Part shown: positions 12,961 through 39,255 of the stretch, piece by piece
Numbering within the stretch: the first letter of the stretch is position 1
Layout of the letters: each line of letters begins with the position of its first letter
Source: Corylus avellana
Taxonomy: Eukaryota > Streptophyta > Magnoliopsida > Fagales > Betulaceae
Assembly: GCF_901000735.1 (NCBI RefSeq)
Contig: NC_081545.1
Coordinates: 24,893,780-24,957,779, forward strand
Direction of reading: 5' to 3'
DNA length: 64,000 nt
Made by a program: the position numbers and the translations under genes
The notes under the pieces: model-generated
Database searches by the model: none
What the model was told of the DNA's origin: nothing
The model's input: only the letters and a program-made list of their open reading frames with translations

Positions 12961-12962
12961 AT

Positions 12963-13460: not shown

Positions 13461-13665
13461 TTTCATTTCCTCAGTTTCCCTTGCGGATATATATGATCAC
13501 CGTATATAAGAAATTGAGTAATGATATAAGGAGGATTAGAGTCCTCCTAGAGTAATTTCAAATGTGAAGTGACATTTAAAATCATCAATAGATTAAAATT
13601 TAATAATGATCGTCTCAAATTGAATGGTAATTTTAAATGCCACCAATGATGTCCATGAACATTGT

Positions 13666-15118: not shown

Positions 15119-15132
15119 AATACCCCATTTGA

Positions 15133-17009: not shown

Positions 17010-17150
17010 TGCCCTCTTGAAACTCTAAAAGGCATGATCAGCATCCTTATTCCATAGAAAAGCATTTTTCTTTAGCAAATAAGCTAGAGGAGCTGCAATT
17101 GTGCCATACCCTTTTACAAATTTGCGACAATATCCAGTTAGGCCAAGAAA

Positions 17151-17945
17151 TCACCTTAAGGCCTTTAGGGATTGATGTCTTGGCCAATCCACCATAGCAC
17201 TTAGCTTCTTTTCATCAGCTCTCACCCCCTCAGCAGAAATCATATGCCCTAGATAATCAATCTCAGAACAACCAAATATACATTTACTCCTCTTGGCAAA
17301 TAGCTGATTGCATCTCAGGACCTCTAAGGTCAATTTCAAATGCTGTAAATGTGTCTGCAGGTTAGGACTATACACCGAAATATCATCAAAAAACACCAAA
17401 ATGAACTCCCTCAAGTAAGGTTTGAAAATATCATTCATCAAGCTTTGAAAGGTTGATGGGGCATTGGTTAACCCGAAAGGCATAACCAGGAACTCATAGT
17501 GTCCCTCATGAGTCCTAAAAGCAATCTTATGCAATCCTTCAGGTCTAACTCTGATTTGGTGATACCCTGACCTCAAATCCAACTTGGAAAAAACCCTAGA
17601 ACGATGTAACTCATCTAATAATTTGTCAATCACGGGAATGAGAAACTTGTCATTGAATGTCTCATTATTAAGAGCTTTATAGTCCATGCACATTCTCCAT
17701 GATCCATCAGCTTTCCTTACCAATAAAACTGGAGATGAAAATGGGCTTTGAGAAGGTCGAATAACTCCAGATTCTAAAAGCTCCTTAACAATCCTTTCAA
17801 TTTCTTCTTTCTGGAAATAAGGATATCTGTAAGGTCTCACACAAATTGGTCTAGAACCAGTGTGAAGGATAATTGCATGGTCATGGGACCTAAAGGGTGG
17901 TAAGCCTTTTGGCTCTTCAAACAGATCACCAAATTCCTTCAACAA
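17151..17945 (-). pseudogene. Chromovirus reverse transcriptase
   Basis: A 264-codon frame with a full Ty3/gypsy RT fold: [69 protein letters not shown], and the catalytic box FFDDISVYS in place of YxDD (common in plant gypsy elements). It is cut from the following RNase H by a short frameshifted stretch (17010-17150). Confidence 0.88.
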
Positions 17946-18049
17946 GGCCTCTAATTCAGATCATGCATTCAGTATCTACTACATTATCCAACAAATGCAG
18001 CAATAACCCTTTGGTAGTCCCCTCCTTTAAATCAACTCACTCAGTGGGT

Positions 18050-19139
18050 GTTTGGCAATCGGGATACGCCCACCTAGTTACTGTGCCCTCTCAGTAATGG
18101 TGCCTTCCAACATATGACTCATCAAACCCAATTTTTAAAATGACCTTTTTACCCATTCATTTGTTTTTCCAGCGCACACTCTTCTCCCACACGCAAGTCT
18201 TCTCCCTCTACAAGCCCTCCACGCCATTTCCCTTCCAAAGCCTCTTCCTATTTCTCAAGGTTCACTTTGTCCAGGTTAATATTTCTCTTTCTTTTTATTT
18301 TCCTTTTTCTCTCCCTCTCTGGATATTTATTTCAGAAAACCTTTCCCTTTCCCGCTCTCCCTCCCTCGCTCACCCTCTCTGTCACTCCGGCCCACGGACA
18401 CCGGACACCTGCGTCGCTTACCCCTCTCTCACCCCAGCGTAAGGTTCCGGCAACCCTATCTATCACTCCACCGGTGTTGAAGAAGGCTCTCTTTCTCTCC
18501 TCCACCGGTGGTTTGTGTCTCTCTCCAAAATTGCAGATGCAAACTTCCACCGTGGTTTCTTTTCTGTCTCTCTCCAAAATTGCAGATGCAAAATTTTTAT
18601 GTGGGTTGCTTTAGTTTTTCATTTCCTTGTAAGTTTGTGTAACTTTGGTACGTGTGTGTAAATTCAATAAAAAATTTGTGTATATAGAGAGAGTCTGGGA
18701 ATAGTCTTTATACACAAATTGTTTATTTTTCTTGTCTATCACACAAAAGCTGGCCAGATTAGAACATTTCTTGGGACAGCTTGTTGAAAAATACCCACAG
18801 AGCAAAACAAAAAAGAAAAGCGTTTTGTTCCTGAACCTTTTGCTGGTTCAAAAGTAACGCCATTTTTCTTGGAGTTTTTGTTTTGGCTTTGAAGGATCTT
18901 CATGTTTCAAGGGAAAAAAAAAATCAAAAACTGCAAGGATGGAGCGCAGGGGGATGCCTGTTTCGGTGATTTGGGCATTCTCAAAAAAAAAAAAAAAAAA
19001 AAAAAGAACTCAAAAAGTGGCCAGAGAAAGATAAGGGTAATATAGTCAAAGTGTGTAAAATATTAATGTTGAAAGTTCAAAGTTTGATGCTCAAAAGGTT
19101 AAAAGGTGAACAGGGTCTAGGACATCCCTGTTGCCAAAC
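18050..19139. mobile_element. 1.1-kb noncoding insert within the chromovirus
   Basis: This block separates protease from RT. Its ends carry a short inverted repeat: GTTTGGCAATCGGGAT at 18050-18065 pairs with ATCCCTGTTGCCAAAC at 19124-19139 (14 of 16 positions). Inside are CT-rich leader-like sequence (18140-18560), two repeats of CTCTCCAAAATTGCAGATGC, and an A23 run near 18980-19003. I see no clear target duplication. A nonautonomous DNA transposon is the best reading; captured genic sequence is possible. Confidence 0.55.
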
Positions 19140-19762
19140 GAAGCCTCAATTTCCTCCCACAGCTTCGGAGCAACTAAACCTTGTAACAAAATAGTCTCTA
19201 CAGCCACTGTAAATTCTATAGTCAAAGCCTTAAAATTCCAAATGATAGAACCTAAGGTGACTAACCATTGAATACCCAAAACCATGTCACAACCAACTAA
19301 GGGAATCACATAAGCATTAGTGAAAAATGCAAACCCAATTAACTGTACATGAACATTCACACACTTGCCTTCGGTTTCAACTACTTCCCCATTAGCTACC
19401 CTCACTCGAATTCTGTGTTCTTTCTGCACCAACAACCGAGTCTTACTGCATATTGCAGAAGCTACAAAGTTGTGTGTGCTCCCACTATCAATTAAAATAA
19501 CAATCCTCCGAAGGCCTATTCTCCCAAGAATGCGCATGGTTTCAAGGTGAAGACTCTCAGTGATGACATGCAAAGAGATTTCAGGTAAATGTTCATCATA
19601 AGAGAATTCCATAAAATCCTCACCCTTTTCCTCCATTACATTATTACCCTCTTCCACCTCAACAGAATCAATCAAAAACAGCTTTGGAGTTTGACACTTA
19701 TGCCCAAAATGCCATTTGGAGTCACAATTATAACACAACCCCTTCTTTCTCCTTTCCTCCAT
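19091..19762 (-). pseudogene. Chromovirus zinc knuckle and aspartic protease
   Basis: The frame begins with a CX2CX4HX4C knuckle (CYNCDSKWHFGHKC) and continues into a retropepsin-like protease with the active site LIDSGSTHNFVAS. The last dozen residues are probably encoded by the insert that begins at about 19139, so the native protease/RT linker is lost. Confidence 0.85.
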
Positions 19763-19780
19763 CTGTGATTGAGAAATTTT

Positions 19781-20527
19781 CTAAATAGGCATGGTAGGTT
19801 TCTGACTTCCTACTGATTGTTGTTGAATGCTAGACCCTCCCCCAAATTTTGGTGAACTTGAATTAGAAAAATTCAAGTTAGAGCTCCTAAACCTTCTAGC
19901 AGACAAAACATGCTCTTCTTGCATCTTAGCCAAACCATAAGCTTTCAGCAATGTAGGTGGATTAAACATTTTCACAGGCAAGGGAATCTCATCCTTTAAC
20001 CCACTCAAAAAATAGCTAAGCTTATTTTGGTCATCAATCCCTCTAACTCTATTAAAAAGAGTTTCAAACCTCTCCTTATACTCCTCTACACTAGACAATT
20101 GTTTCAATCTAGCTAGGGACTCCATTGGATCATCATAAGCTAAGGAACCAAACCTTTGCAGCAAGGCTTGAGCTAACACATTCCAATTAGGCAAATAACT
20201 AGACATATGCATGTGTTGGTATCACACTAAGGCCTTACCCTCCATCTGAATAGATACAAGCATTAATCTTTAATTATAAGGGATTTTATGATAATAGAAA
20301 AACTTATTGGCCTTATATATCCACCCAAAAGGATCAGAACCATCAAACCTAGGAAAATTGATTTTAACTGACCTTGTTATGATGGTCAGTTGATCATCTG
20401 CTTGCTGCTCACCCCTATCAAATCGATCATCTTGATAATACCTCCTTCCTTGATTCTGTGCAGGCTGCCGAAAACTCTGCACATTAAATTCTGGTGGAAT
20501 TCTCTGATCGTTCCTCTCCTCATGCAA
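19781..20527 (-). pseudogene. Chromovirus gag, split
   Basis: Two minus-strand frames (20270-20527 and 19781-20212) give a plant Retrotrans_gag region. The first has PRFDGSDPFGWIYKANKFF. The second has LLQRFGSLAYDDPMESLARL, VEEYKERFETLFNRV and YFLSGLKDEIPLPVKMFNP. A stop near 20213-20269 divides them. Confidence 0.85.
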
Positions 20528-21051
20528 GAACGAATCATAGTTGCCATTTGTCCATGGCCTTCTCTGCTCTCTGGTCTCAAATTGAGAAACTTCAGGAACA
20601 TGTTGAATGAAAGATGGCCTCCTCTGTCAATCCTCAGCCACACTAGTACCAGGGATATCACTCTCCTCAATGTGCACACCTTTATTCCTGCCCGCCTCAT
20701 TTGGAAACTCCAAAATCTGAAAGCCATCATCTGTCCTTGTCTCCAAGGTTACAGGTACATTCTATTTGTCTTCTAGAGTGCTTTTTCCCTTCTCCATAGC
20801 CTTAGTAAGATAGGCCATGGTCTTCATCATCCCCTCCCATCTCTTATCAGACTTCTTCTCAAAGTTTTGGAAGAACTAAGAAAGTTGATTCTTCACTTGA
20901 AGATCATTTTGCTCCAGCCTTTTCTCTACCTTCTCCAACACCTTCTCGTTTTCTTCTTGATTTTCTTTGAGAGAGCAATTGTCTCTGCCATCTAGTTCAT
21001 GCGTGTACCATCAGCCATGGTTGCACCTCAAGAAGCTCAGCACCAAGAAAG

Positions 21052-21064
21052 TGCTCTAATACCA
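21052..21064 (-). other. Primer-binding site of the chromovirus
   Basis: Directly inside the 5' LTR, the minus strand reads TGGTATTAGAGCA, one change from the TGGTATCAGAGC site complementary to initiator tRNA-Met. It fixes the orientation of the element. Confidence 0.75.
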
Positions 21065-21066
21065 CT

Positions 21067-21553
21067 TATTACACTCCAAGTATTTTCCAGCAGAATTTGA
21101 AAGAGAAACTAACTGGAATTGGAATGAAACTTTACTGTTTATTCAGATTCAAGTATATTTATACAAAGATCGATTCGAGTTGATCAAACTCCTCACTACA
21201 GAATCTACGAAGCTAAGAAACAACTACTTCTAAACATACAAGCTGATAGCCAAAAGTCTGAATGAATGCATAAAGACTACCTTCAGCCTTTTATACCCCT
21301 TCCCCGGTTACAATAGAATCTTATTACAGAGAATTAAAACTTAAGTAAGTTGTAACTAATAAACCAGAATTGCACACGTGTGTTTGACTGTGTAACTAAA
21401 GTAGTTACATGCTTACAGCCAGCTGTATTCCAGGTGTCCCCTTCTCAACTACTTCTCCATGCGTCACCTCCTCAACTCAACAGCTTGTTCCTACTTTCCC
21501 GCATACTACCTCCAGCTCACTCAATCCTCTCTTCAACCAAAAGACTTGTAACA
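21067..21553 (-). repeat. 5' LTR of the chromovirus
   Basis: This 487-bp partner of 14633-15118 has its TG end mutated to TA at the internal side. The outer end CTTGTAACA abuts the target duplication TGTAC. Confidence 0.9.
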
Positions 21554-22378
21554 TGTACATAGATAAGGTTCTTGCAAAACAAAATTAATGTCAGTTTATC
21601 AAAGGGTCAGCGGTTAGGGCCAAAGACTCTCTGACGCTAAAGTTAACATCTTTATTCTTGGATAAAAAAGATAATAAAAATTTGTCTCAAGTTATCCATG
21701 AATCAGTGTGTGTTGAGAAAGGTATGAGAGAAATGAGAGGGAGTGAGGGTCATCAAAGAGAGAGAGAGACATCTCTAGGTCTCTACCAAAGAGACCTTAT
21801 CCGGAGGAAGGAGAGAATGCCCCTTCTTGTCTTCTCCTCTTTTATTTAAGAGAATCAAAGTGAGATGCATATGTGTCATTAGGTGAGCGGGTGATGGCAT
21901 ACTACAAATAAGCATAAAAAGAATGAGGCCTACTAGGGGAGATTTTCTCCCCAACAGTACACATTAGAATTCTAAAACCCCAATTAAAGAATTTGACATA
22001 TATGAAAACTATTATATTATATCATTTTTCATGTATGTATGTTCATTGTTAACCGCACATATATTTTTATTTCTTTTCTAAAGACTTCAATGTGACAATA
22101 TAAATTGATTTGTAGCTAATAGGAAAGCTAAATACAATACTTGCCTTTTTCAAACAAAAAGATGCACAAATTAAGGTCATAAGCTTATGTGTATAACCGA
22201 TCTTTTTATGTCGCACATTGAAAGATAACTTGCAGTGGAATTTATAAAGATTTAATCATAGATGATTTTCGGGATTTAAAAAACATCGGGTTCCATTTTG
22301 ATAAATGTTTCAGCTTAAAATTGAAATATATTATGAAACAATTATTTTGTACCATTAATTTAATTTGTATATATTAAT
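21554..22378. other. Spacer with LTR-like sequence, no gene
   Basis: Right of the chromovirus the sequence has LTR-like phrases (AAAGACTCTCTGACGCTAAAG, a GAGAGAGAGA tract, TCTTTTATTTAAGAG) but no coding region. The unit-2 copy at 38372-39255 has an expanded (GA)n. Confidence 0.35.
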
Positions 22379-22870
22379 GGGGAAAGTTCACTTTAGATTC
22401 TTGAACTACCATGCGATTTGACGTACCCTCGAACTTTGAAACCTCTCAATTTGGACACCTAAACTTTCAATTACAATCAATTTGAACCTCTCCATCAAAT
22501 TTTAAACGTTAAAACTCCTAAAAATATAAAATTACCCTTCTATTTTCTTTTTATTAAAAAAATTTTGAAAAAAAAGGTCACAAGGTGGCCCAACCGTGTG
22601 TCACCTTGTGATCTTTTTTTTTTTTTTATAATGTTTTTTTTTTAAAAAAAAAAATTATTTGAAATTAAGTGTAAATTTGAAATTTTATAAAAAAAAAAAA
22701 AAAAAAGTTACGAGTATAAACGTCATTGTATCACTTTTAACGTTTAAAATTTGATGGAATAGTTCAAATTGATTGCAATTGAAAGTTCAGGGGTTCAAAT
22801 TGAAAGGTTTCAAAGTTTGGGGATATGTTAAATCGCGTGGTTGTTCAGGGGTATAAAGTAAAGTTTCCCT
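22379..22870. mobile_element. MULE-type fold-back MITE, 492 bp
   Basis: Long terminal inverted repeats start GGGGAAAGTTCACTTTA and, on the other strand, AGGGAAACTTTACTTTA. They extend over about 120 bp each. A 9-bp target duplication TATATTAAT flanks it (22370-22378, 22871-22879), as expected for Mutator-like elements. The centre has a hairpin GGTCACAAGGTG / CACCTTGTGATC (22577-22614). Copy at 39256-39736. Confidence 0.85.
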
Positions 22871-23299
22871 TATATTAATTTAATCTTTATTTTAATATAT
22901 TTCTTATTCATACTTTGGCCCCTCCTATAAAATTTGTTGGCTCCATCCCTGCCTCCCTCTCTAGGACTACTAAGGGTCCAAAGAGCATATTGCCATCTCT
23001 TGATCATCTTTTCTCCACTCTTTAAGTGAATCATCACCATTAAGCACCTGTATATCTCATATTGGTAGAAAATAACAAGAGAAATGGTACATGCTCTTCT
23101 AAATGTTTGCTTTTAAGTGCGCACTTCTTAATGTGACAGTAAAAATTATCATTGATTCTAAAATTTAATTGTGATTTATCTAAAATTTTATAAAAATATA
23201 TGATGAGAATGTAAAGAGTGCGAGAACATAGAGAGAAACAATGAAGCATTAAAGCTATATCTTCGAAGTTTCACATGTTGGCTTGTCGATAGTGTGTTT

Positions 23300-23430
23300 G
23301 TGTGTAGCAGCACCTTGATAGAGTTCCAGCACAATGAAGAGTTTATTAGTGTTTAGTTATTTACTGGACCAAGGAGTCTATTAATTGCTTTCTTATTTGA
23401 TATCTACGTGGTATCAGAGCCTTTGCAACA
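23300..23430 (+). repeat. Copia-type LTR end and primer-binding site (remnant)
   Basis: TGGTATCAGAGCC at 23409-23421 is a canonical initiator-tRNA primer-binding site. It is followed by ATG TCG AAT TCT CTC (23431), typical of copia gag starts, which soon hits stops. Upstream sequence is presumably the LTR end. In the unit-2 copy the site is mutated to TGGTATCACAGCC (40255). Confidence 0.5.
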
Positions 23431-23552
23431 ATGTCGAATTCTCTCAACTTTATCGTTTAATTGATTGTCTTGTGCTGATTTTCGCTCATCAGCTAGCCAA
23501 TCAAAGCCATGAAACAAATTGAGTGAAATTTAAGAGTTGTTAGTTAAACAAC

Positions 23553-23793
23553 ACCCCATTCCCAAACATTATTCACTTCATTCCTCAAAAAAATCAACAT
23601 CAAAACATTCTCACTTTTATATCACATTATTCACTTTTTTATACCATATCGTTTACTTTTTATTACTATTTAAATAAATAAAAAAAAACTACAAAACAAA
23701 GTTTTTCCACTTTTCAATACTACTTTTTCACTTTTTTGTACTAATTATTACACTCATTTTTTTCCTCACCAAACATAAACAATATTTGGGGAT
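23553..23793. mobile_element. MITE with 10-bp target duplication
   Basis: The flanks are GTTAAACAAC at 23543-23552 and 23794-23803. Ends are imperfect inverted repeats (ACCCCATTCCCAAACATTATT versus CATCCCCAAATATTGTTTAT). The interior is AT-rich and noncoding. A target duplication of 9-11 bp suggests a Mutator-like origin. Copy at 40402-40639. Confidence 0.7.
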
Positions 23794-23974
23794 GTTAAAC
23801 AACCCCTTAGATGAAATATTGTGTGGCCTGAAGGCATTGAAAGAGGATGAAGAATCATTGCTCATCTCTCTAAAAAAATCTTGGGTCCATTGTAAGCCAC
23901 CATCAAGAAATGACTTACAAAGATCCAGAATATCGCGACACCGTCCACAAACCGAGCCATTCACAACCCACAGT

Positions 23975-24215
23975 CCTATGTTAGTTAGTGTTTGAGTCCT
24001 ACATTACTTAGAATCTCTGGTCTATGTTATTTTGTAATTCTTAGATTATAAATAGGAGGTCATAGCAATAGTTTTGATTATGAAAGATTAATAAATAAGT
24101 TGTGGTATTCTCCTGCTCTGAGTCGAATTATTGTGGTCTCTCCTATCCGAAAGCCGAAAGGAGCTATTGAGGTATCTCCTACCCAAAATGAGTTAATATT
24201 ATCCATATATTCATG
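23975..24215 (+). repeat. Copia-like LTR remnant
   Basis: It begins TGTTAGTTAGTGTTTGAGTC, has a TATA-like TATAAATAGGAGG near 24048, then AATAAATAAGTTGTG and TTCTCCTGCTCTGAG, the usual order of promoter, R and U5 in copia LTRs. It may be the 3' LTR of the element whose primer-binding site is at 23409. Copy at about 40821-41060. Confidence 0.45.
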
Positions 24216-24228
24216 TTATTCAGTTGTG

Positions 24229-24405
24229 GGGAGTAATGTTATAAGTCTTTTTAGAGTCATCATAGGCTCCTCCCAAATATGATGTGACTTTTAAAATTAC
24301 CGTTAAATTTGAGATGTGATGTATTGAACTTTGATCTATTGATGATTTTAAAAGTTATATCATATTTAAAATGACTCAAAAAAAACTCTAAAAAGATTAA
24401 CAACA
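24229..24405. mobile_element. Short fold-back MITE, 177 bp
   Basis: It sits between two copies of TTATTCAGTTGTG (24216-24228 and 24406-24418). The arms pair around AAGTCTTTTTAGAGT on the left and ACTCTAAAAAGATT on the right. Copy at 41075-41251. Confidence 0.7.
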
Positions 24406-24419
24406 TTATTCAGTTGTGA

Positions 24420-25433
24420 GTTCCGTCGTACCTCAAGTGTCAACTTCAAGTAAGGGACAATGTCACATGTACGTACTCAAAGTGAGTCCAACCTTGATTA
24501 TCACCGACATTAAGTAAATCAATTAACCAAATATTTAATACAACCTGCGTTGTCATCAGTCTTTTGCTTTCAGTGAAGAGATAAAAATGACTTTAAAATA
24601 ATTTATTAAAGATTTTTTAAAATAATAATAATAATAATAATCCCTTCCTCTCCTGTGCTTTTTCCCACAGAAGTCCCAAAAAATGAAAAGGCATCATCGA
24701 CGAATGCAAACTTGCAAACCCTTTCTCAACCACCAATTATATGCAGTAAAGTAAGAAAACACTCTCATTTTCTAACATCATATGATGACTTTTCTTTTCC
24801 TTAGTTTGCCTGAGAAAAGAAAAAGGTTGATTGCCCTTTTAAGACTCGAGAAGTTGGCTGCATTAATTTGCATCCACCAGTTAAATCTCTTCTTCCACGA
24901 GGCAAATTTCCATTGAAAACGAAACCTGTCTCTTTATACCTATAAACTATCTAAAAGGAATTACATAATTGTTTTTAAGAATGAACAAAGGGGCAACCTA
25001 AACATATTGATTTCAAAGTATTGGGGTTTCAGAAATCTCAACCCAACACTTAAATATTTAACTGAAATGATGGTAGGATTAAGATTCAAATTCGTTATAG
25101 TACCATGTTAAATAACCAATTATTTAAAAAAAATTTAATTAATAAGAAATAAGAAATTTAATTTAACTAATTTTGGAAATTTAAATGGACTTTCTTTCTA
25201 AGGTTAAACGTCAAGATAAAAACAGGAGACGAAAAATTAATAGTCATGTTTTAACCTTCATGATCAAGGAGAAAAAAAAAGTTTCTTTTGTTTCGAAAAA
25301 ATGAATCATATATTTGGCATATCTTAGAACTTATTTGAGACTGCGTTTGAGAAAGACAACTTTTAAGTCAAAAAGCGTTTTGATTATTTTTAAGCTTTTT
25401 GAATCATTAAAAGCGCTTTTAATTTTTTTTTAC

Positions 25434-25476
<43 letters not shown>

Positions 25477-26772
25477 TGAATATTAAATGCACTTTTAAGC
25501 CTCTCAAACAAATACCCACCCTTGGGGTCAACTTTTTTTAAAAAAATTTTTAACTTAAAAAAATAACAAAATTAAAAATTAAAAAAGTTTCTGAAAAAAA
25601 AAATGGTCATTATTATGAATGAAAATACAATTTTTATTTTAAAAAAAAAATACGAAATAAAAGAAGGACCAAAATAAAAATTATTGCTTTAGAAAATTTT
25701 TTATTTTTTAAATTAAAAAATAAGGAAAAAGTTTCTAAAGCAAAATACAGTTTTTATTTTTTTTAAAAAAATACCAAAAAAAAAAATAATAACCAAAATA
25801 AAAATTATTGTTCCAAAAACTTTTTTTTTATTTTTTATTTTTTTATTTTTTAAATTAAAAAATAAGACAAAAGTTAGTCCCATATTGAACAAAATAGTTA
25901 GACCTTTAGCATTTTCGATTTGAAAAAGATTTGTCAAAGGCACCATAGTTTACTTCAAAGTTTCAAAAGTTGGGGATCTACCACCATTAATGTGGTGTGT
26001 CCACGTAGTAGGTAGCACCGAAAGTGTCAACTTTCACACAGTGGCAATATCACATATAACTAAATTTGAGTGCAACCATATTGTTAACTTCCATTTATTA
26101 AATAAATCACTGAGCACGAGAAAGTTAGCACTAATCTCTTGTTACTCAATTTAAATTAGCACTTTTATTCAACTTCTCTTTGTCGTCTTATGGACTGAGC
26201 TTATAACCTTTTAATATTGCTCCCACCAACAAAAGTTATCTGGGTTACTTATTTATTTATTTATTTTAATTTGGTTTTTTCTAGGTTAACTATGTTAGTA
26301 TTTGTGCCTTTTCATACCTTCAGAAGTATTATCAGTTGTTCTTCTTTTATTTCTACAATTAGGATTAATATGCACTCATAAACCATAGCTTAAATGCTTA
26401 ATCTTTATCTATTTTCAAAGTTTATGGGTTTCACCTTTTTGATATTACAATGGCAGCCAAAATATAGCTACTGCTCCACACTCCAGCAATAAGGACCCAT
26501 GCATGTTGCAATTCTGGCCAATGAACCCAGAATTGGCCCCCCAGTTGGTGGATTACTGGGTCTTCATTGGTGAACATGACAATTTCCATCATCTACAGAA
26601 AAAGGTTTAGACTTTAATCCACCATAAAATATATTCCCAGGAAAAGAACAAAAAAGTTTGTGAAAGGATTAATGAAGGAAGAGAAAGGTAAGTGGCTGAA
26701 GCTTTACCCATTGGTTAAATCTCTACTCTTCCACAAAGTTTTCGCACCAGACATAATTTCACTACTTTCAAA
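24420..26772. other. AT-rich spacer, no gene; one hAT-like AT-rich repeat
   Basis: No supported coding region. 25330-25520 has the repeat phrases GAGACTGCGTTTGAG, AAAAGCGTTTTGA, AAAAGCGCTTTTAA and a (TA)n run (25437-25468). 25540-25900 is A/T homopolymer-rich. The segment is repeated at 60082-62313, where 60900-61500 is clearly more diverged than its neighbours. Confidence 0.5.
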
Positions 26773-26919
26773 GAATTTCACTACTTTAGAACTGTTATAG
26801 TTATGATCATAATTCGTTGAGCTTCAGTCTAGCGATCGATCTCCTGTCTTGAGATTACCAATTTCCTTGATCTTCGAGTATCAGGCAGGCGTGAGCCCCG
26901 ATATATGGTCTTACGACTA
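26773..26919 (-). pseudogene. Decayed organellar 23S rRNA fragment
   Basis: On the minus strand I read AGTCGTAAGACCATATATC, GGGGCTCACGCCTGCC, GATCAAGGAAATTGGTAATC, then ATAACTATAACAGTTCTAAA and GTAGTGAAATTC. This is the order of the conserved large-subunit rRNA region around CGUAACUAUAACGGUCCUAAGG-UAGCGAAAUUCC, with many G-to-A and C-to-T changes. The wording fits plastid rrn23 best; mitochondrial 26S is the alternative. It is about 147 bp, with a nearby partial repeat of GAATTTCACTACTTT. It is not functional. Copy at 62314-62460. Confidence 0.65.
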
Positions 26920-27460
26920 TAAATGATAAATTCTGCAATCTAAATAAAATTTCAAAGGAATTACAAAATGGTAACCAAAATGCATTACAACAACAACGAC
27001 AACACATAATTTATTTCCCAATTGTTTCATGATATTATTGGATGCCTACCATGCCCATGGTCCCCAAAAAGACACTGTCCACCTTCCTTCCAACATTATG
27101 GACCACTGCCAATACGTGGTCCTAAGCATTTGATCCATTTGGTGAGGGGAAGGCCAGCACTATTATTACAAACGTACCCTTCATTTGCGTACAAATTTAA
27201 ACCCAGAAATTCCGAGTCCGATTCCTCAACAAAAGAATACAAATCGTAAATGTAAATAACTCTATACTATACAACATGTACAATCTAGTAAAACAACTAC
27301 ATTGTACCAAATCCTCCCCTTTCCTGGCCTTTTTCAAAACTCTAAGAATAACATATAACTATAATAACACTATTAACTGCCTCCTCATAAAAATTTCCTA
27401 TTTTTTTCATTCAATAAATATAAATCTAAAACAATTTATATATATATTTTCTTTCCATTA

Positions 27461-27577
27461 TTACCACTTGAACCCCCACTCCTCTTGCTCCCTGAACCTC
27501 CTGAGCACCCCCTCAATAGCCACATCGAAAGCGTCCTTTATGGTCTCCAACCCCTCCTGGGGTCTGGCATACACTAT
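27461..27577 (-). pseudogene. XLT2: C-terminal stub of an XLT2-type GT47 gene
   Basis: Only the last 38 codons and the stop of the XLT2-type gene remain (VYARPQEGLETIKDAF ... REQEEWGFKW). At 27578 homology to the full genes (50808, 63007) stops after ACACTATC. Sequence homologous to position 2089 starts at about 27580, one extra base apart. The open frame continues 22 codons into unrelated sequence, so a chimeric small frame exists, but it lacks the anchor and catalytic domain. This is the tandem-duplication breakpoint. Confidence 0.9.
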
Positions 27578-28044
27578 CAATCTATGGTGGAAGTGAAAAA
27601 AGGAGGAGGAATGAGGAAAGGGGGTCGACCCCCTCCTTCCCACCCCCCACCCTTTGCTATGTTCTTTCTTTAGGGTTTGACGGCTACCAGGCTATCGCAT
27701 TCTCAGTTTGCACTCCGTGTTTTCTAATTGTCATTAAAATAAGAGGAAAACTTTAGAGATTACTGCCATAAGTCTATAATCTAATTCATATTTTATTCCA
27801 AGGTAAAAGTTGGTAATAAACTTTGACATTTATTGGCTTTTCTATCCCTTGAAAATAATTTCACTATAAAAATAGGCTTAGGGCTTGACCTTAAGTAATT
27901 TTTATTTTTTTTAATGTAATCCGAAAATAAATATTTTTATTTAAATAAGTTATCATTACACCAAAATAATTTATATTTAAACTTCATTGTTTTTTAAAAT
28001 ATTTTTCACTTAGAAAATCACCTATCGGCCTATTTTTACTTTAG

Positions 28045-28075
<31 letters not shown>

Positions 28076-28785
28076 TTAAATTAGCTCTTAATTCTAAAGT
28101 CCTAAATCACTTAAATGGGCTTAAAGACATATTTAACTAGATTGGGCCCATTAAGTAAAAACGCCCCCCATAATCCAACTACAATGGATCAAACACTTGA
28201 TCTAAAATATATTTTACAAAGTTTATGGTATCAATTCAAATCATAACTTTTCTTGAAATTTTAATGAAAAATTAATGTTGTTTGAACCCGCTTTTTACCT
28301 AAAACATATAGTTATGTCATAAATCGGTTTCTCAGATGTTTAGAGGACCTTTATATGGATTTTTCAGCCCTTGTAGGTTCTGCCATGGCCGAAATTTAGG
28401 TCCCCTAAATCAGGTTTTCAAAATAGTTTCAAACAAAAATATAGTTTATAACATTAAAAATCAATTTAACAATGAAAACTCAGGTTTTTATGCATGAATC
28501 TGCTGCAATTATTCTTCATTGAAATCAAGAGGTAAATGTTTCTTCAAGTTCCAATAGGAGTGATTTTCTTGTTCTTAATCAGCAAGAATTGATATCCAAC
28601 AGTTTGCAATTACCTATTTACCAGCAAACACCAAAATGGGAAAAATACCAATATCTGTAAATATCACAAACAGTAAGGACTCTAGTATTCTCTTTACTAT
28701 CATTGATAATGAGTAAACATTACATACCTTACCAGGAAAAGTACCATGAGTAAATTCAAGAGCAAAAGGTAAATACAAGTTGAAA

Positions 28786-31700
28786 TTAGAGCACTAAGAA
28801 TAGAAGCCCTATTATTACATACATGAACCACTTCCAGCTAGAGAGTTGATGAGAAGAAGAAGTATTCTGGCACAAATTAAATCCATACCAAATATCACTG
28901 GGGATATAGGTGTTGTAGGTAAAGGTAACAGCTCTAGTATTATAGCCATAGATTTTCACACCTTCAGGCTTCCAACCATCTGGTCCAGTACGATAAAGAT
29001 ACACATAACAGATCTGGTAGGCGCACGGTCCATATATCTGAAACGTATCTGATGAACATCGTTCAAAGGCCCTCGAAGATGGATCATCCAGCCTTGGTGC
29101 ATAAACCTGATGATTAAATGTTAAAACATTAATCACAAACACCCATTTTTTGTCCTTAAGGTTCATTGATGGGTTTAACAACTCTGTTACTGCAAATATC
29201 TGAAAATATCCTCTTGGACCTAGTTAAACAGATACTTTTCGGAAAACTTTGTTCATTAACACCCATTATTTAAACTTTGGTACTTATTTTTGGCAAAGAA
29301 AATGCATAATTAAAAAGCTAATACCATCCAACTCTATCAGTTCATTTCAAGCTAATAAACTTGGTGTATTTGGGCAATGAAAATACAATTTGGGGGATTC
29401 AGCCCTTCTTTTATGAATAATAATTTTATTGAAAGAAAACCTCGTACACGAATAGTATACAAGAGAGCCAATCACTCTATAGGCTTCTATAATCTAAAAA
29501 TTAATCAGATCTACCAGATCCGATAAGGAAAAATTAAGAACATATTCAACAGCCAAATCCAAAAGTGTTGGGAGAGATCTCAAAAAGAGAACTTTAAAGA
29601 AAGCACATTGGACTCGCAATCCTCAAACAGACGCCTATTCATTTTCTCCAAATGCTCCGCATTAAGGAAGCATGAATAACAATTCAGATTGGCTCTTTTG
29701 GATGTCCCCTCCCCTGGATCTTCTAACAATAAAACAACTCTAGGATGTTGCTAGGCATAGTCAATGAAACCCCAGATAAGTTAAAAACCAAGTGCCAGAG
29801 ATCAATAGTGTATTGGCAATGAATGAGAAGGTATTTATAGTCTCTTCATTCTTTAACAAGAGAGAAACCCCACCTTCTAAGATTGTCAATCATCAGGATT
29901 TTACCATTGTTGTCGATAAGAAGAAAGCAATGTGAGGATCCTTAACCTTCCAAATACTTTTCCAGAAGAACGAACAATACTCTCCTATTTGTAACATTTT
30001 ATAATAGCTCTTCACTTCGAAACCGTGACTGCTAGCTTAAATCCACAACATTCTATCCACTTCCCCCCAGATGGGTTTTCGAGGAGTATAATAAATTGAG
30101 AAAGAAGTTAAGAGATTCTAGCTCCCAATTTTGGATTGCCTAATGAAACTCAGATTCTAATGGATAGAAGAGCTGGAGGGATCCAAGTAGTTTGACACTA
30201 AGGCCTCTTTATTACAAGCTATTGAATAAAGTTATGGAAATGAGTAGTTTAGAGCCACATCTCTGTGGTGCACATCTCCACACTACACGTCATGCCAAAA
30301 ACGAATGTGGGATCCGTCCCCAACCTTGATCCTACAAGATTGGAGAAAGACCCCCAGCCGTTTCTAATATTCCCCTGAAGACTCACCCTATAAGGCCCTC
30401 GAGCTTCCACTGAACTTGAACTCCAGCCCCCTCTCTGAATCTCATACTTTTCAATAATCACATGTCTTCATAAAGAATTCTCCTCTTACCGAAATCTCCA
30501 TAGCCATTTACCAAGAAGAGTTTTGTTGAACAGCTTGAGATTTTTTACTCCCAACCCTCCTTTAGAGATTGGGAAGCAAATAGTCTTCCAATTCGCTACG
30601 TGAAAACTTGGACTCCCCACTTGGACCATCCCAAAGAAAGTCTTTCTAAAGACGCTTCAATCTCCTAGCAATGCCAGGTGGTAATGGGAAGAGGGATAAG
30701 AAGTACATAGGAAGACTGGATAATGTACTCTTAATAAGAGTAAGTTGCCCTCCCTTGGACACGTAGACTTCTTCCAACTAGCCAACATTTTTTCCATTTT
30801 CTCAACTACCATCCCAAATAGCTTTTGACTTATCTGAAATGGCCTCAAAACACATTAGAATGTGACCAAAATAATGGATTTGATCAATACTTGTATCGCA
30901 CATAATAAGTATTTCATCTACGAATAGAAGATGGGATATTTTCAGGGGGGTAGCGCTAAGGATGTACACCCAAAATCTTAATAAATAACCCCTGACCATC
31001 ACTCTAGAGAACATTCTAATGAGAGCATCCATAACAATCACAGAGAGAGTGGGTGAGAGATGGTCCCCTTGGCAAAGGCCTCAAGAACTACCAAAGAAAC
31101 CATACGGGCTACTGTTCATCAAGATGGAAAACAAGGTCGAGAAAAAAAATACAAGCAGTTATCCATTTCCTCCATTTAGTACCAAACCCACTAGCCCTCA
31201 TGAGGTAGGAGAGGAACTTTCAATTGACACGGTCAGAATCCTTTTCAGGTCCAGCTTGCACGTAACGCCTGGAATTCTCAATCTCAGCCTGCCATCCAGG
31301 CACTCATTATCTACAAGAACTAAGTCTAGAATTTGTCTCTCCCCAATAAAAGCATTCTGGCCATTCGAAATGAGTGATTCATTCCAATAGCAAGAACTTT
31401 GGCCATGATTTTATACACACTCCCCACCAAGATGATAGGTCTGAAATCCCAAACTTCCAACAGTCCGATCTTCTTAGGGATGAGAACAATAAAAGTAGCA
31501 TTGACTATTTTCGAACATCTCATGCTCATGGAAGTAATGAAATATGCGCATGAGATCAACCTTCGCTATAGCCCAGCAAGGAAAAAAAAAAAAAAAAACC
31601 AATAGTGAAGCTGGTAGGGCCCGATGCTTTGTCTCCATCCATACTAAGCAATTCTTGAAGAGGTTCCTCCTTTCGAAACAATCTCTCAAACTAGTCCACT

Positions 31701-33656
31701 TCTGTAGAATCCAAACAGGGAAACTCCAAGCCGTCGTCAATGCAAAAACTGGAGATAAAGTTGTATCTTTTGTGAGAATTAGCAAGGTGACGAAAAAATC
31801 TGGTGTTATGATCCCCTTCTTTTAGCCAGGTTGCCCTAGACATTTGCCTCCAGCTAATTTCTTGCATAAGAGCCACATTCTCCTGACCTATTTTTGCCTT
31901 AGCCCTCCTAACTCTCTCCTCTTCTACCAACAATCTTTCCTCTTCTAAACCATCAAGAACCTGGATCTCCAACAGCAAGGACTTCTTCCTCTCCACTACA
32001 TTACCAAAGGCCTCTTTATGGAGAGGTGCCGGCAGTGATGGAACATCAGCTAGAGATGTGTGGTTCACGGAGATGAACAGTGACAACATATAACACAACA
32101 CCTCAAAAAACCCGCACCATCCCCACTTTTTCTTGCCTTTGGGGAGGAGAATGGGAATGACTCCCCTCTGCCTGCCACCACAGAACTCCTCAATTGCCAA
32201 ATAGTTACCGTGAGAATTGTACCACCTCTGGCACAACAAATGCACCCTGTGAATCTCTGACCTTGTGAACAAACCCCACATTGATATCCAGCCAAACCAC
32301 CACTTCAGCCGCTGCCGACAGCCAAAAAATTCCTCTTCCCAATCATACCAAACAAAGATAGCCTTTCCCCCCCTCAATAATACGTACACAAAGGGTTTTA
32401 CCCCCTAAATTGATGATAGACTCCAACAATTTCAATTCAACGAAGAAGAACCTGCCCATGGTGCCTTCGATACACTAGCAGGTTCAGAAAGGCAGGGAAC
32501 GTGCATCAACCACTCCAACGACTATCAACTGCAACCTTCTATAACACCCACACCAATCCAGCACCAAAGGAACCCAAAAAAACATCAAAAACTCAAAAAC
32601 TCAAGAGGGAGACAGTCAGAGAGGCAACGGCACAAAAGATTCTCAGCAAATATTCTCTAGCCTCAAATTTTCATTACGTCTGAATGAACAGGTGGTCATG
32701 GGGGAAAACCTTTTACACTTTTTTTTACAGATACATGGTGTGTTATTTCATGCACCATCATTATGTGGATGAGCTTTTGTTCTGCTTGCTGTTATGTTCG
32801 GGTAAACAGCTATTTTACATGCTATTGTTCTGCTTCCATCATTTCATGGGCAGAACAAAACCATATGTCACATCCTTTTTTTGGGAGATCCGCCGTTGAA
32901 AAGTCATCATGAACTACGGCCAATTTGAGTTATGGCCTAAAATATCAGGAAAACAATTTTTCAAATTCATTATCTGCAATCTAATCCGCTTTGATCTTTC
33001 TTTTCTTCCTGGAAAGTCTTAAATTTATGAGTATTTTAGCAATCAAATTTTTTTAAAAAAAATATATATTTTAGACTATGTTTTGAAGAGAAAATGCTAA
33101 TACTGACAAAATTAATGGTCAAATTTTATGTTTCTACCTCAAAACAAACATGATTATCCCATTATCTATAATCTAAATGACGAGTTCATCTTAATTTACA
33201 CAATATGTTGAAATTTTGGGTAACAGAGCCAGTGAATTTAAACAAACAAAAAAATGGAAGACATAAAAATTCCTCCTAATAAATCGAGAAACTCGTAATA
33301 AAACGAACCTGATTGCCGTAAGCGTCACCAAAAGAAATACTGATCTGGTCTCGCGTGTTTCTCGGTGAGGAACAGCTTGTTGTGATAACAACCGTGTAAG
33401 AACAGCTTGTTGCACTCTTTCAGAACCAAAAAGGAACAGAAAAGCAAAAAAGAAAACTTTAATTCAAAGAGATAGAGAAAACCCAAATACAAAAGTCAAA
33501 AAAAAAAAAAAAAAAGAATCTTTGGATGAAACACTCAACCTGGAGATAGCTTATGTTGAAGGATTTGGCAGCTTGGGGCTGCAAGCCGGAAGATTTGGCT
33601 TCTGAGAGGATAAAGATGAAGGCGAGCTGGAGCAGAAAAATAAGTGCTTTGATCAT
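28786..33656 (-). CDS. ATS3: ATS3-like protein, second copy, three exons
   Basis: Exons 33540-33656, 33309-33416 and 28786-29106 have the same splice sites as the first copy and give 181 aa. Compared with 3288-8167 I read L6I, Y59N, S124G and A157T. Y59N changes the RYTRDQ motif, one of the most recognisable parts of the family, to RNTRDQ, and may be the more damaging change. Signal peptide, PLAT region and hydrophobic C-tail are retained. A TATATA at 33752-33757 lies 96 nt upstream of the ATG. Intron 2 holds the duplicated LINE remnant. The frame is open, so I call it a gene, with reduced certainty about function. Confidence 0.8.
29392..32500 (-). mobile_element. L1-type LINE remnant in ATS3 intron 2, unit 2
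   Basis: It is collinear with 3901-7100, with the same order of RT and ORF1-like pieces (31691-32389, 31326-31559, 30657-30848, 30249-30461) and more frameshifts. It keeps about 30 bp near 29646-29680 (CTCCAAATGCTCCGCATTAA) that unit 1 lost, and lacks unit 1's 33-bp duplication. Confidence 0.78.
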
Positions 33657-33889
33657 TTTTTTTTCCCCTTGAAAATGGCACCTGGGAATTGGGATTTGGA
33701 AATCAAATAGCCACAAAAGGCATGTGGATGACTTGAACAAGACGCAGACGCTATATACCATTATTTTCTTTTACATTTTTTAAGAGTAATTCACTTATAA
33801 TTTATGAATATACGACAAAATAAATAATTTTCATACGAAGGAAGAAGGAAGAAGGTCGAATCTGTCATTTGGAGGACTGTTTTATATAT

Positions 33890-34560
33890 ATATATATATA
33901 ATTTAACATTTTAATGTTCAAAAAGTGATAAAGTAACTCATAAGCTATCATCCAGTTGCAATTTATTTAGTCACTCCGTTAGTCATTACAGTCAAATAAG
34001 ATGAAAAATTCAATATTAGGTCGTTTTGACAAAGTTAAGTTACTAAAATATCATTTTGAGAAAAAAAATCAATTTAAAAAATACTCTCCAAAACGACGTC
34101 ATTTTGAGAAAAAGAAAAAAAAACGGTGGTTTAGAGTTGGCTTGCCGGCCACCCCAAAGGCCATGGGGGTGGTCAACAAGCCACCACCAGGCCATGGGGG
34201 TGGCTGCCCGTGTGGCTGGGCGGCCATTCCACAGGCTTGGGGGTGGCTGGCCGACCACCCCAATGGGGTGGCCGTTGAGCCACCCCTAATTCACCCTTTT
34301 TTTATTCGCGGCGATTCAGTTTTTTGGTACATTTTAAATTGATATATATATATAACCATATATATATATGCTCTTTCTCTCATTATTTTGAAAATGGCGT
34401 TTAATAATTAACCGAAAATAATGTTGTTTTCGTTTTAAATCACATTTGTGAGGGTTGGTAATAGAATTCATTTAGAATTGTAACTTTTTGGTACTTTAAA
34501 GAACTACTTTATCACTTTTTAAACATTAAAGAGCTAAAATAAAAATAACTAATATATATA
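33890..34560. repeat. Fold-back element with GC-rich core, unit 2
   Basis: Counterpart of 8435-8990. The GC core (about 34130-34290) has different numbers and order of the GGCCACCCCA / GGCCATGGGGGTGG units, and the right arm is rearranged with (TA)n insertions. The core therefore evolves faster than its surroundings. Confidence 0.65.
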
Positions 34561-34848
34561 TATATAAAAGTTCAATACGTGGCTACCATTTGAAAAAAAC
34601 GTGAAATGCGTCGGAAAAGAGTTGGGTATTGTATACTTGAAAATGACTTGTACTTGAAGACTCTCGTTTGCATCGACGATAGAATGTAAATCAATAAATT
34701 TTCGCTTTCTTTTATATTTTATTTTGATGTTTATTAGTTAATTAATGTGGGAGTGCCTTTTTTTTTTTTTTTTTTTTAAAGAGATGATTATCATTGATGA
34801 AAAAATCAGAAGGTGGAGTAAAAAAAGCTCCATCAACAATCAAGAGAT

Positions 34849-34890
34849 AGTCTCTCTTCTCCCTCTTGTGCGGACATACCAAAAAAAAAA
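34849..34890 (+). mobile_element. 5'-truncated SINE insertion, 42 bp
   Basis: The SINE tail phrase CTCCCTCTTGTGCGGACATA plus poly(A) lies between two copies of the 13-bp ACAATCAAGAGAT (34836-34848 and 34891-34903). Unit 1 has the uninterrupted site at 9546-9558. The inverted copy has the same insertion at 49643-49684. Confidence 0.85.
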
Positions 34891-34959
34891 ACAATCAAGA
34901 GATGGAGCTACTTGCTTCATCAATACAATATCACTAATACAATTTAGAGAATGATCCAT

Positions 34960-35346
34960 CTATATCCTATCACTGGCATTTGTAGTAGTCGTCTTTGCAA
35001 ATTTGTGTGCCGCATCATTGGCTTCATGGTGGACAAAACCGCATCTCCACCTTGGGAACGTATGCAAAATAAGACGCGTATCCTCGACAATGTGACCAAA
35101 CCAACTCCAAGTGCTCATCTTTGAGTTCAAAGCATCCACTATGAGTTTCACATCACCTTTCAAAAAAAGATGTAGGATGCCCAGGTCTCTACGCAGACAT
35201 GCTGCATGAAAAGAAGCAAGAGCTTCTCCCGTCGTTGGCTCAAAAAGACTTAGTCTAGTCTTGCTTATCCCTGCAATAACCCGCCTCCTATTCTCTTGTA
35301 CAACAACTCCTATCCCCATTATTCCACAAGCTAAGTAACACTTCAA
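34960..35346 (-). pseudogene. RNase H-like retroelement remnant, unit 2
   Basis: Same 128-codon frame as 9615-10001 with a handful of substitutions, including the restored-looking HEANDAAH for RKTNDAAH. It lies 357 bp downstream of the GT47 gene. Retroelement fossil carried with the duplication. Confidence 0.6.
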
Positions 35347-35702
35347 ACTAATTATAATAATTAATTAGTTTCAATGGCGTTACAATGTCTATATAAGTGT
35401 TATTTTATATTCCAATAAAAACAGATACATGGAAAGAATTGTCGCGCAAATAGATCAAGAACATAAAACATAAAAATTGGCGTATGACTAAACAAAGGAA
35501 TTGAAGTCACGTCAAAAGAGTAATCACAACTTTAAAAAAATAAAAAAAATAAAAAAACAAACTCTATTTAATCAATTCTATTATGTATCCATTGGAATAC
35601 ATTGACAGAACTTTAGAGCTAGTTTGACTGACTTAGAGTAAAATGTATTATTGAATTACAAAATAACAGTAACTCTTAAAATTTAAATTAGAAAAGCATT
35701 AA

Positions 35703-37067
35703 TTAGCCTCCATGTTTCTCCTTAATCCTCCTGAAGACCCCTTCAATGGCAACATCAAAAGCATCTTTTATACTCTCCAAACCCTCTTGAGGTTTTGCAT
35801 ATAAAAGTTTCGGAATAAATTCAATCACCCTCTCCCTCATCTTCCTCACCTCTTCTCTGCTATACTTCTCAAGCACCTTCCTAATTATGGCCGTTCCATT
35901 TTTCACCAATTCGTGATCAATAAAAACTGAATAACTCGCCAGCTGTTGACCCGGTAAAAACCACTCGTATTGATCATAAGCGGTCCGCTTCCAAAAAAGA
36001 ACCGGGATTGAACCGGCCACCATGCAGTCGAACATTGACCGCCTCGTGTACGTGTCCCCTCTGGGTTGCAGGCAGAAGTCCGAACCCAAGAACGTGTCCA
36101 AGATAGCCGAGGCGCCATTGTAACACCGAGTCCCGCTGCAATCCACGAGTCGGCAAGAATCTGACTCGTTCTGACAATAACTCAGCAACCGACCTCTAAA
36201 ATCGTCCTTGAATGCGCCACGTTTCCCTCCGACGAAGCAGAAGAGGCGGCTCCGCTTGTGTGCGCGAACATGCCTCTGCCACTCCAACACGTCAGCATCG
36301 GATCTGGGATGGAATCCAGTGGGGTAAGGCACACCGATGTCGAGTGGGTCCCACGGACTCCGCTCAATGACGAGGCGATTGACTTTCTTCATTCCGGGCA
36401 TGTAGACAAAGCTGGACCCCCATTCGTTCTCCCCCCACCGTCGAAAATCCCATACCATCCGTCCCAGCGTTATGAAGTGATCTGAGCCGTTCGATCTTTT
36501 CCAATAGGGCTGGTGTTGGACCCACCTCAACAACATCTCGCAATCCCTATCGCGCTCTTCGCCGCTACGGCCAGTGAAAAGAAGCCTCCCAACAGCGAGT
36601 CCAGCATAAAAGGGAATGTAGAAAGCCGTAGCGGATTCGGGCTCCAAAGTTCTACACCTATGCTTCAAAACCCGATTGTGGAAAATCACTTCCAACATGA
36701 ACTGGTCCGTCCAGTACCAAGCCGGAGCTAGGCTCGCCGGCACCACCCCAGCGATCTCCGTCGCTCTCCGGCCGAACCCACCGTTCAAAACGGCGTCGCA
36801 GTATCGTGGGCTCCACGGGTCCAAACTAGAGCAATTGTGTAGCATTTCTTTGTTGAACATGGGTGGTAAATCATAGACGTAAACCCCGCCGGACGGACAT
36901 GTTTCAGACACATTATGGGCCGGAGTTTCAACAGTTGTGTTTGTGGCTACAGACGCAATAGAGGTGAAGGAATATTGGAAGCATAAGAATGTTTGAAACA
37001 AAACAAGTGTGAATAGGAGGAAGCGTTTGCAAGAGCAGAAGTTTTTGTTGGCATCTTTGAGCTCCAT
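35703..37067 (-). CDS. GT47 xyloglucan galactosyltransferase, XLT2-like (copy A')
   Basis: 454 aa, intronless, identical to copy A except R61G (PSGGVYVYD), H222Y and E330D in the GSDFCLQPRGD signature. Anchor, sequons and all listed GT47 motifs are intact. E330D is conservative. R61G sits at the entrance to the first conserved strand and is the change most worth testing. The promoter (37068-37830) is almost identical to P1 of unit 1, so co-expression is expected. A short block TTTTTTTTTTATTATTATTT in unit 1 near 12165 is missing here. Confidence 0.9.
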   Translation of the reverse strand: MELKDANKNFCSCKRFLLFTLVLFQTFLCFQYSFTSIASVATNTTVETPAHNVSETCPSGGVYVYDLPPMFNKEMLHNCSSLDPWSPRYCDAVLNGGFGRRATEIAGVVPASLAPAWYWTDQFMLEVIFHNRVLKHRCRTLEPESATAFYIPFYAGLAVGRLLFTGRSGEERDRDCEMLLRWVQHQPYWKRSNGSDHFITLGRMVWDFRRWGENEWGSSFVYMPGMKKVNRLVIERSPWDPLDIGVPYPTGFHPRSDADVLEWQRHVRAHKRSRLFCFVGGKRGAFKDDFRGRLLSYCQNESDSCRLVDCSGTRCYNGASAILDTFLGSDFCLQPRGDTYTRRSMFDCMVAGSIPVLFWKRTAYDQYEWFLPGQQLASYSVFIDHELVKNGTAIIRKVLEKYSREEVRKMRERVIEFIPKLLYAKPQEGLESIKDAFDVAIEGVFRRIKEKHGG

Positions 37068-37830
37068 GATGATGTTCTTGGGTTTACGTTTGGTTGCAGA
37101 CTTGCAGTGAGGTTTGTGTGTGGTATTGAGAGAGATCTAGCGAAAATAAACTATACACAAGAAGCTATGAAGAGCCAATAATTCACAAGGTTGCGAAATG
37201 AAAAGTCTTCTTCAACAAAATATTGCATTTGATAGTCATTGTTTCTTCCCAGTTGATCAATCAATAACACAGAAAATTCCATGCACATACATAAAATTGA
37301 AAAACGCATGTGTTCTTTGTTGTTTTTTCCCCAGAAGAATTTAAAATGACTTGGCGACAAACAAGTCAACCCATGCGCGCTTAGTAAGAGACGAAAAATT
37401 AAAATACGAAAATTAGCATGCGGCAGGGCAGTTGCGAATGCTTGCTGGATCCAAATACGTACCATTCACCTACAATTCAATTTTCAACACGGTTCATATA
37501 TATATGTGAAGGTAATTATCATTGCGTATTTGGGTTAATATCATCACATGCTCTGCCAGTGCACCTCTCCTATACCTACCATAATCTTGTTTGCTCTCTC
37601 TTAACTTCTCTATATATATTTTGATTGATGGTGTGTATATATACAACTTGTAAAGACCTTATGAGACGTATACGTTTAATTATTGAACTACAGCTAGCGA
37701 GGATCCTCTTAAATATTAATTGCTCTGTATAAACATGCTATTTATAAACATTAATTTAGTATATTTAACCTATTTCCTTTTTCATTTACAATTATCTTTT
37801 TGGATAAAGTCCATATATCCCTTTCAAATT
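37068..37830 (-). promoter_or_regulatory. GT47 promoter region of copy A'
   Basis: Collinear with 11723-12490, with the same TATAGTTTATT element and CT-rich leader. A 104-codon open frame again spans it. Confidence 0.5.
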
Positions 37831-38178
37831 ACCACCCAATTAACAATGTCACCTCCAAACTTTTAATTGTGACAATGTCCCTCCCAAACTACTAAAACAT
37901 TGTCAATGTCCCCCTATAAAGCTAGCAAAAAGATAAAAATGCCCCTATATATTTCTCAATAAGACAAAATTACCCCTATAAATTCAAAAAAAAAAAAAAA
38001 ATTATAAATTTTTTTTTTTAAATGGAAATTTTTATTTTTTTTGTAAACGGAAATTTTTATTTTATTTTATTTTTTAAAAAAAACGATTTTCTTTTTTAAC
38101 TTTTGCTTTTAAAAAACATAATTTTTATTTTTTTAAACAAAAATATTCAATTTTTATATAAAAAAAAAAAAAATCGAA

Positions 38179-38278
38179 NNNNNNNNNNNNNNNNNNNNNN
38201 NNNNNNNNNNNNNNNNNNNNNNNNNNNNNNNNNNNNNNNNNNNNNNNNNNNNNNNNNNNNNNNNNNNNNNNNNNNNNN
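38179..38278. other. Assembly gap, 100 N
   Basis: Fixed-size N run. The left side ends in the AT-rich insert upstream of P1 and the right side resumes inside the chromovirus LTR. Confidence 1.
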
Positions 38279-38371
38279 GCATCACCTCCTCAACTCAACA
38301 GCTTGTTCCTACTTTCCTGCATACTACCTCCAACTCACTCAATCCTCTCTTCAACCAAAAGACTTGTAACA
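38279..38371 (-). repeat. End of chromovirus LTR in unit 2
   Basis: Matches the outer end of the right LTR of unit 1, finishing CTTGTAACA followed by TGTAC (38372-38376), the same target duplication. Confidence 0.85.
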
Positions 38372-38571
38372 TGTACATAGATAAGGTTCCTGCAAAACAA
38401 AAGCAATGTCAGTCTATCAAAGGGTCTCCAGTTAGGGCAAAAGACTCTCCGACGCTAAAGTTAACATCTTTATTCTTGGATAAAAATGATAATAAAAATT
38501 TGTCTCAAGTTATCCATGAATCAGTGTGTGTTGAGAGAGGTATGAGAGAAATGAGAGGGAGTAAGGGTCAT

Positions 38572-38574
<3 letters not shown>

Positions 38575-38607
<33 letters not shown>
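38575..38607. repeat. (GA)n microsatellite
   Basis: About 16 GA units, expanded relative to the short GAGAGAGAGA at the matching place in unit 1 (about 21759). Confidence 0.9.
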
Positions 38608-38610
<3 letters not shown>

Positions 38611-39255
38611 AGGTCATGAGACTAAAAGACTCAAGAGGAAGAGAGACATCTCTAGGTCTTTGACAGAGAGACCTTATCTGGAGGAAGGAGAGGATGCCCC
38701 TTCTTGTCTTCTCCTCTTTTATTTAAGAGAATCAAAGTGAGATGCATATGTGTCATTAAGTGAGCGGGTGATGGCATATTGCAAATAAGCATAAAAAGAA
38801 TGAGACCCACTAGGGGAAATTTTCTCCCCAACAGTACACATTAGAATTCTAAAACCCCAATTAAAGAATTTGACATATATGAAAACTATTAGATTATATC
38901 ATTTTTCATGTAAGTATGTTCATTGTTAACCGCACATATATTTTTCTTTCTTTTCTAAAGACTTCAATGTGACAATATAAATTGATTTGTAGCTAATAGG
39001 AAAGCTAAATACAATACTTGCCTTTTTCAAACGAAAAGATGCACAAATTAAGGTCATAAGCTTAAGTGTATAACCGATCTTTTTATGTCGCACATTGAAA
39101 GATAACTTGCAGCGAAATTTATAAAGATTTAATCATAGATGATTTTCGGGATTTAAAAAACACCGGGTTCCATTTTGATAAATGTTTCAGCTTAAAATTG
39201 AAATATATTATGGAACAATTATTTTGTACCTTTAATTTAATTTGTATATATTAAT

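Follow-up and report, generated by a model that had tools for sequence, protein, structure and literature searches.

A head-to-tail junction between the end of an XLT2 gene and the left end of a 25.5-kb unit in hazelnut, probably left by an end-joined tandem duplication

In the 64,000-nucleotide stretch of Corylus avellana DNA that was analysed here (the window), the 3' end of an XLT2 gene is joined to the left end of a 25.5-kb unit. Two homologies meet at this point, the junction between them is bare and lies inside a contig, and the XLT2b (XLT2-like) copies on its two sides are intact. We regard it as probable that the junction goes back to a tandem duplication with an end-joined breakpoint, in which XLT2b was copied and XLT2 was left as a stub. 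The ancestral order would have been: left flank, ATS3-like gene, LINE-like relics, XLT2b, Ty3/gypsy element, intergenic DNA, XLT2 and right flank. Breakage in the intergenic DNA near 2087 and within the last 40 codons of XLT2 would have supplied the ends, and their joining by NHEJ, or by template switching during replication with pairing of no more than two bases, would have produced the head-to-tail copy. Each original order would have been kept once, the left flank at 2085/2086 and the uninterrupted XLT2 at 63124; the copy would have brought the gain of a second intact XLT2b, but of XLT2 only the last 38 codons.

The junction and its two parents

The following features define the junction:

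2086..27578: unit 1, 25.5 kb, with an ATS3-like fragment, LINE-like relics, XLT2b, a Ty3/gypsy element, intergenic DNA and the XLT2 tail (self-BLAST, Pfam)
27461..27578, minus strand: XLT2 tail, the last 38 codons and one base, with the stop codon; outside the GT47 domain
27577..27580: junction, TC common to both parents, A (27579) in neither, then left-end sequence (alignments)
27579..38178: sole contiguous part of unit 2, 10.6 kb, ending at the first N gap

Gapped alignments of 27400-27759 confirm the end point given in the first-pass annotation: the homology to XLT2 stops at 27578 (178/183 to 62900-63300 and 142/145 to 50700-51100). The 118 bases of 27461-27578 have two mismatches to 50808-50925 and a single one to 63007-63124, and with 117 of 118 bases identical to the latter the match is not due to chance. 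The left-end homology had been placed from 2089 at about 27580; it is indeed there, but it starts slightly earlier, with 2086 at 27577, and extends over 7071 aligned columns at 92.7% identity in the self-BLAST of the window (2086-8966 versus 27577-34560). A second collinear match, of 24508-27578 to 60082-63124 (93.8%), comes from the other side, and both long matches meet at the junction.

At the break, the full XLT2 reads ...ACACTATC and continues with TTCGG, the left-end parent has ...CAGGTC before and GATCTATGG after the break, and in the junction itself ...ACACTATC is followed by AATCTATGG. The only flush bases shared at the join are TC (27577-27578 = 2086-2087). Base 27579 is an A where XLT2 has T and the left-end parent has G; it is either an inserted base or the result of a subsequent change. 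Around the break, the two parents are identical at 20% (±10 bases), 20% (±20), 19% (±50) and 22% (±100) of the positions, which is at or below the mean of 25-27% for random pairs. Since the parents share only the flush TC and base 27579 matches neither of them, end joining fits the junction and homologous exchange does not; the latter was rejected for the lack of homology between the parents, a verdict which presupposes that no repeat at the break has since disappeared. By its sequence, the join is non-homologous; it may be due to end joining of the classical type or to template switching. The initial proposal of end joining has therefore withstood the analysis, with unrelated parents, at most two flush shared bases and one unmatched base. 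The accompanying claim of a few bases of ATC microhomology and one extra base is only half right: 27579 matches neither parent, but ATC cannot have mediated the joining because both ATCs were retained (TATC-A-ATC). An overlap of two or more bases was found in 18.6% of 20000 random joins, so that TC alone does not speak for a microhomology pathway.

The 40-mer spanning the junction (27559-27598) is found at one place on the plus strand of the 64,000-nucleotide window and nowhere on the minus strand. The junction is located inside one gap-free contig (C1), with the nearest assembly gap 10.6 kb away and no N within 10 kb.

The XLT2 stub and the content of the units

The stop codon of the stub occupies 27461-27463, and 27464-27578 comprises 38 codons plus one base, in agreement with the previous count of the last 38 codons of XLT2 at the seam. 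These codons correspond to residues 458-495 of XLT2, and the GT47 domain covers residues 102-433 of 495 (Pfam). Judging from its sequence, the XLT2 piece at 27461-27578 is a dead 3' stub that has neither a start codon nor the catalytic domain. A small chimeric open frame at 27461-27643 had been noted as well. This frame is present, but it opens with GTG, and extended from stop to stop (27461-27691, 76 codons) it contains neither an ATG nor any Pfam family at E <= 0.1. For these reasons, the frame across the junction is not a credible plant gene, and the idea of a chimeric gene, lacking both ATG and domain, was discarded. The stub lies downstream of the unit-2 ATS3-like sequence and shares its strand; in this position it could at most act as a distant 3' end.

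Unit 2 follows unit 1 directly, head to tail, on the same strand and with no gap (27577-34560 after 2086-27578), and in the self-BLAST it matches 2086-8966, 9245-9560 and 9545-12895 in this order, i. e. it is contiguous to about the 12.9-kb position of unit 1. The 25.5-kb repeat unit of the first-pass annotation thus applies to the length of unit 1 (2086-27578), whereas unit 2 can be followed contiguously for 10.6 kb only. Apart from an inverted hairpin at 32-200, the self-BLAST found nothing of 150 bases or more in the window that repeats the left flank (1-2085).

An ATS3 (embryo-specific protein 3) gene fragment is found in unit 1 at 3291-3725 (PF06232). The same unit harbours a reverse-transcriptase-like relic at 9618-10019 (PF13456), and the stretch 4969-7045, which we take to be LINE-like because of motif resemblance, gave no Pfam match. 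The end repeats of the Ty3/gypsy-type element in unit 1 (14635-15118 and 21069-21553) differ at 26 of 484 sites (5.4%). A part of this element (14635-21553) is present at the same place in the inverted contig C3, and was therefore there before those copies split.

The XLT2b and XLT2 genes of the window are the following:

10358..11722, minus strand: XLT2b of unit 1, 454 aa, GT47
35703..37067, minus strand: XLT2b of unit 2, 454 aa, intact; 8/1365 bases differ from unit 1
47480..48844, plus strand: third copy of XLT2b, 454 aa, intact; in the inverted contig C3
50808..52295, minus strand: XLT2, full reading frame of 495 aa at the start of contig C4; Pfam GT47
63007..64000, minus strand: XLT2 cut by the window end, contig C5 (self-BLAST)

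Contigs beyond the first gap and divergence between the copies

Four gaps divide the window into the contigs C1 (1-38178), C2, C3, C4 and C5, the first of which carries the junction; it is these N runs that limit the contiguous part of unit 2 to 27579-38178.

38179..38278, 42166..42265, 50678..50777 and 59982..60081: assembly gaps, exactly 100 N each
38279..42165: contig C2, copy of 21461-25319
42266..50677: contig C3, which in inverted orientation covers about 8563-16930 of unit 1, except for some unmatched stretches
60082..63124: first part of contig C5, matching 24508-27578 and continuing into XLT2 past the break, i. e. the unbroken right parent

The contigs between the gaps repeat segments of unit 1 in another order, one of them reversed. 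The junction had been thought to explain the entire layout (unit 1, truncated XLT2, unit 2, full XLT2). This does not hold: the region 38178-64000 consists of four gap-joined contigs, one of which is inverted, and the wider layout beyond 38178 is not established. The window contains segment B (with XLT2b) and segment D three times each and full-type XLT2 ends twice, so that a two-unit model leaves a third, partial set of unit sequence unplaced. Contig C4 (50778-59981) begins inside the XLT2 3' end, and it is identical to C5 at 1022 of 1024 bases, the whole overlap up to the window end. As these XLT2 ends are in different contigs and nearly identical, they may be one locus assembled twice, and the window may contain two copies of the right flank, in C4 and in C5. 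The equivalent of unit-1 24508-25319 is carried by both C2 and C5 as different copies (41/808 sites); C2 differs from unit 1 at 1/812 sites and C5 at 42/808. The copy counts are as compatible with three units as with two units and additional allelic contigs, and on this scaffold they should not be trusted unless reads support them.

Divergence was counted per 500 bases, with 13 full windows in region A and 6 in region B. Between units 1 and 2, divergence ranges from 1.2 to 5.0% in region A and from 0 to 5.2% in region B, where the windows include the XLT2b coding sequence and selection lowers divergence; over 2086-8585, the difference amounts to 167/6413 sites (2.6%). The ranges are 0-9.7% between unit 1 and C2 and 0-8.3% between unit 1 and C5. 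For the dispersion test, we left out the windows of A from 8586 (67/361, 18.6%, poorly aligned), of B from 12545 (short) and of D from 27508 (71 sites), and kept the last C window (359 sites). The counts were over-dispersed in all five comparisons (2.7, 15.8, 16.4, 15.2 and 13.6); the uniform divergence expected from one event without exchange was thus found in none of them. In addition, the two sides of the junction are unequal: 62/2491 sites differ to its right (2086-4585 versus unit 2) and 13/1567 to its left (26008-27578 versus C5; Fisher p 1e-4), the left-side value resting on the scaffolded contig C5. The patchy divergence and the unequal sides argue against the simplest one-event history, and suggest that gene conversion, mixed haplotypes or more than one event may be involved.

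In the comparison of C2 with unit 1 (23961-25319 / 38279-42165), divergence is 0-0.6% at the right end and 2.4-9.7% in the left part, a sharp change as it might be seen in gene conversion or a haplotype switch. At a substitution rate of 6.5e-9 per site per year, the 2.6% mean of the 13 region-A windows would correspond to about 2 million years, and to several times more at tree rates; given the patchy divergence, this date was rejected and is not relied on.

Origin of the junction

The case for an end-joined tandem duplication is built on homologies that abut at 27577/27578 with parents no more alike than random pairs and no N within 10 kb, on the unbroken right parent at 63124, and on a left flank (1-2085) that, apart from the hairpin at 32-200, has no second copy in the window. 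From these features we infer the order of events and the repair pathway, and the junction molecule would accordingly be one that exists in the plant. Unequal homologous exchange between repeats was considered as another source of the junction; TE copies as well as XLT2 paralogues (72% identical at the DNA level) are abundant in the window (self-BLAST) and could have driven later changes. For the junction itself, this origin is scarcely credible, as the parents have no homology there and XLT2b is not at the 2086 break. A more serious alternative, even if an unlikely one, is a larger tandem duplication that initially comprised the whole XLT2 in unit 1 and some left flank in unit 2, followed by an end-joined deletion from XLT2 codon -38 to 2088 of unit 2. 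Such a deletion would be expected to leave a junction of the same appearance, the junction alone fits both histories, and the unequal divergence on either side allows more than one event. It does, however, require two events, and no remnant of the deleted stretch, such as another copy of 1-2085 or of the 5' part of XLT2 in C1, appears in the self-BLAST.

It is also conceivable, with a probability that we consider low, that much of the sequence after 38178, possibly including unit 2, stems from the second haplotype: C2, C3 and C4 would then be allelic contigs scaffolded alongside, and the junction would be present on at most one haplotype or would be a chimera. The four 100-N gaps coincide with the switches between unit copies, the XLT2 of C4 and C5 differ at 2 of 1024 sites, and C2 is identical to unit 1 at 811 of 812 sites (24508-25319). 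Assembly misjoins normally run through long shared sequence, whereas the junction has two shared bases. The heterozygosity quoted for two Betulaceae, 0.38% and about 0.92% (PMC6972722 and PMC7917096), is in favour of the haplotype reading. The 2.6% between units 1 and 2 exceeds both averages, though local values can exceed these. Typical signs of false (heterotype) duplications, according to PMC9516828, are gaps between the duplicated pairs on one scaffold and half read depth. The contigs after 38178 are similar to such cases, with near-identical copies on one scaffold and gaps between them; units 1 and 2 differ from them in that no gap separates them, and this argues for a tandem duplication at the junction itself. 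A true complex array, with a direct duplication, a correctly placed inverted third unit, three intact XLT2b copies kept alike by gene conversion and XLT2 as a stub, is likewise of low probability, and would mean increased dosage for only one of two neighbouring xyloglucan galactosyltransferases.

The end-joined tandem duplication would belong to an ordinary, known class. Among the 27 rice CNV genes without collinear ancestors that are broken down in PMC4812662, 14 were attributed to NHEJ, 12 to TEs and one to NAHR. The rice NHEJ cases resemble the hazelnut junction in having micro-homology or none at the breakpoint and a gene duplicated together with a truncated neighbour; they differ in that the ancestral copy was compared in other species, whereas the comparison of the hazelnut junction was made within the window. 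With respect to mechanism, our case adds one further non-homologous junction to the many known. If real, the duplication is a dated, asymmetric change in gene copies, with XLT2b doubled and XLT2 not; the counts on the scaffold (at most two full-type XLT2 ends, three XLT2b) are possibly inflated by duplicate or allelic contigs.

Like the Arabidopsis XLT2 / MUR3-type xyloglucan galactosyltransferases (CAZy GT47), the intact hazelnut copies have a Pfam GT47 domain, and their nearest relatives bear the name XLT2; the junction piece differs, with the last 38 codons only, all outside the domain. The nearest named relative of the 495-aa XLT2 is an XLT2-like protein of Alnus glutinosa (91%; best 120 of 1231 proteins at E <= 0.001). 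The named relatives of XLT2b include proteins of Quercus suber (82% over 81% of the query) and Castanea mollissima (75%), and its three copies differ pairwise at 8, 11 and 17 of 1365 bases. Near the C terminus of XLT2, one of the two base differences between C4 and C5, at 50825, gives Gly in the C4 copy; the residue is Trp in the C5 copy, in the stub and in Alnus.
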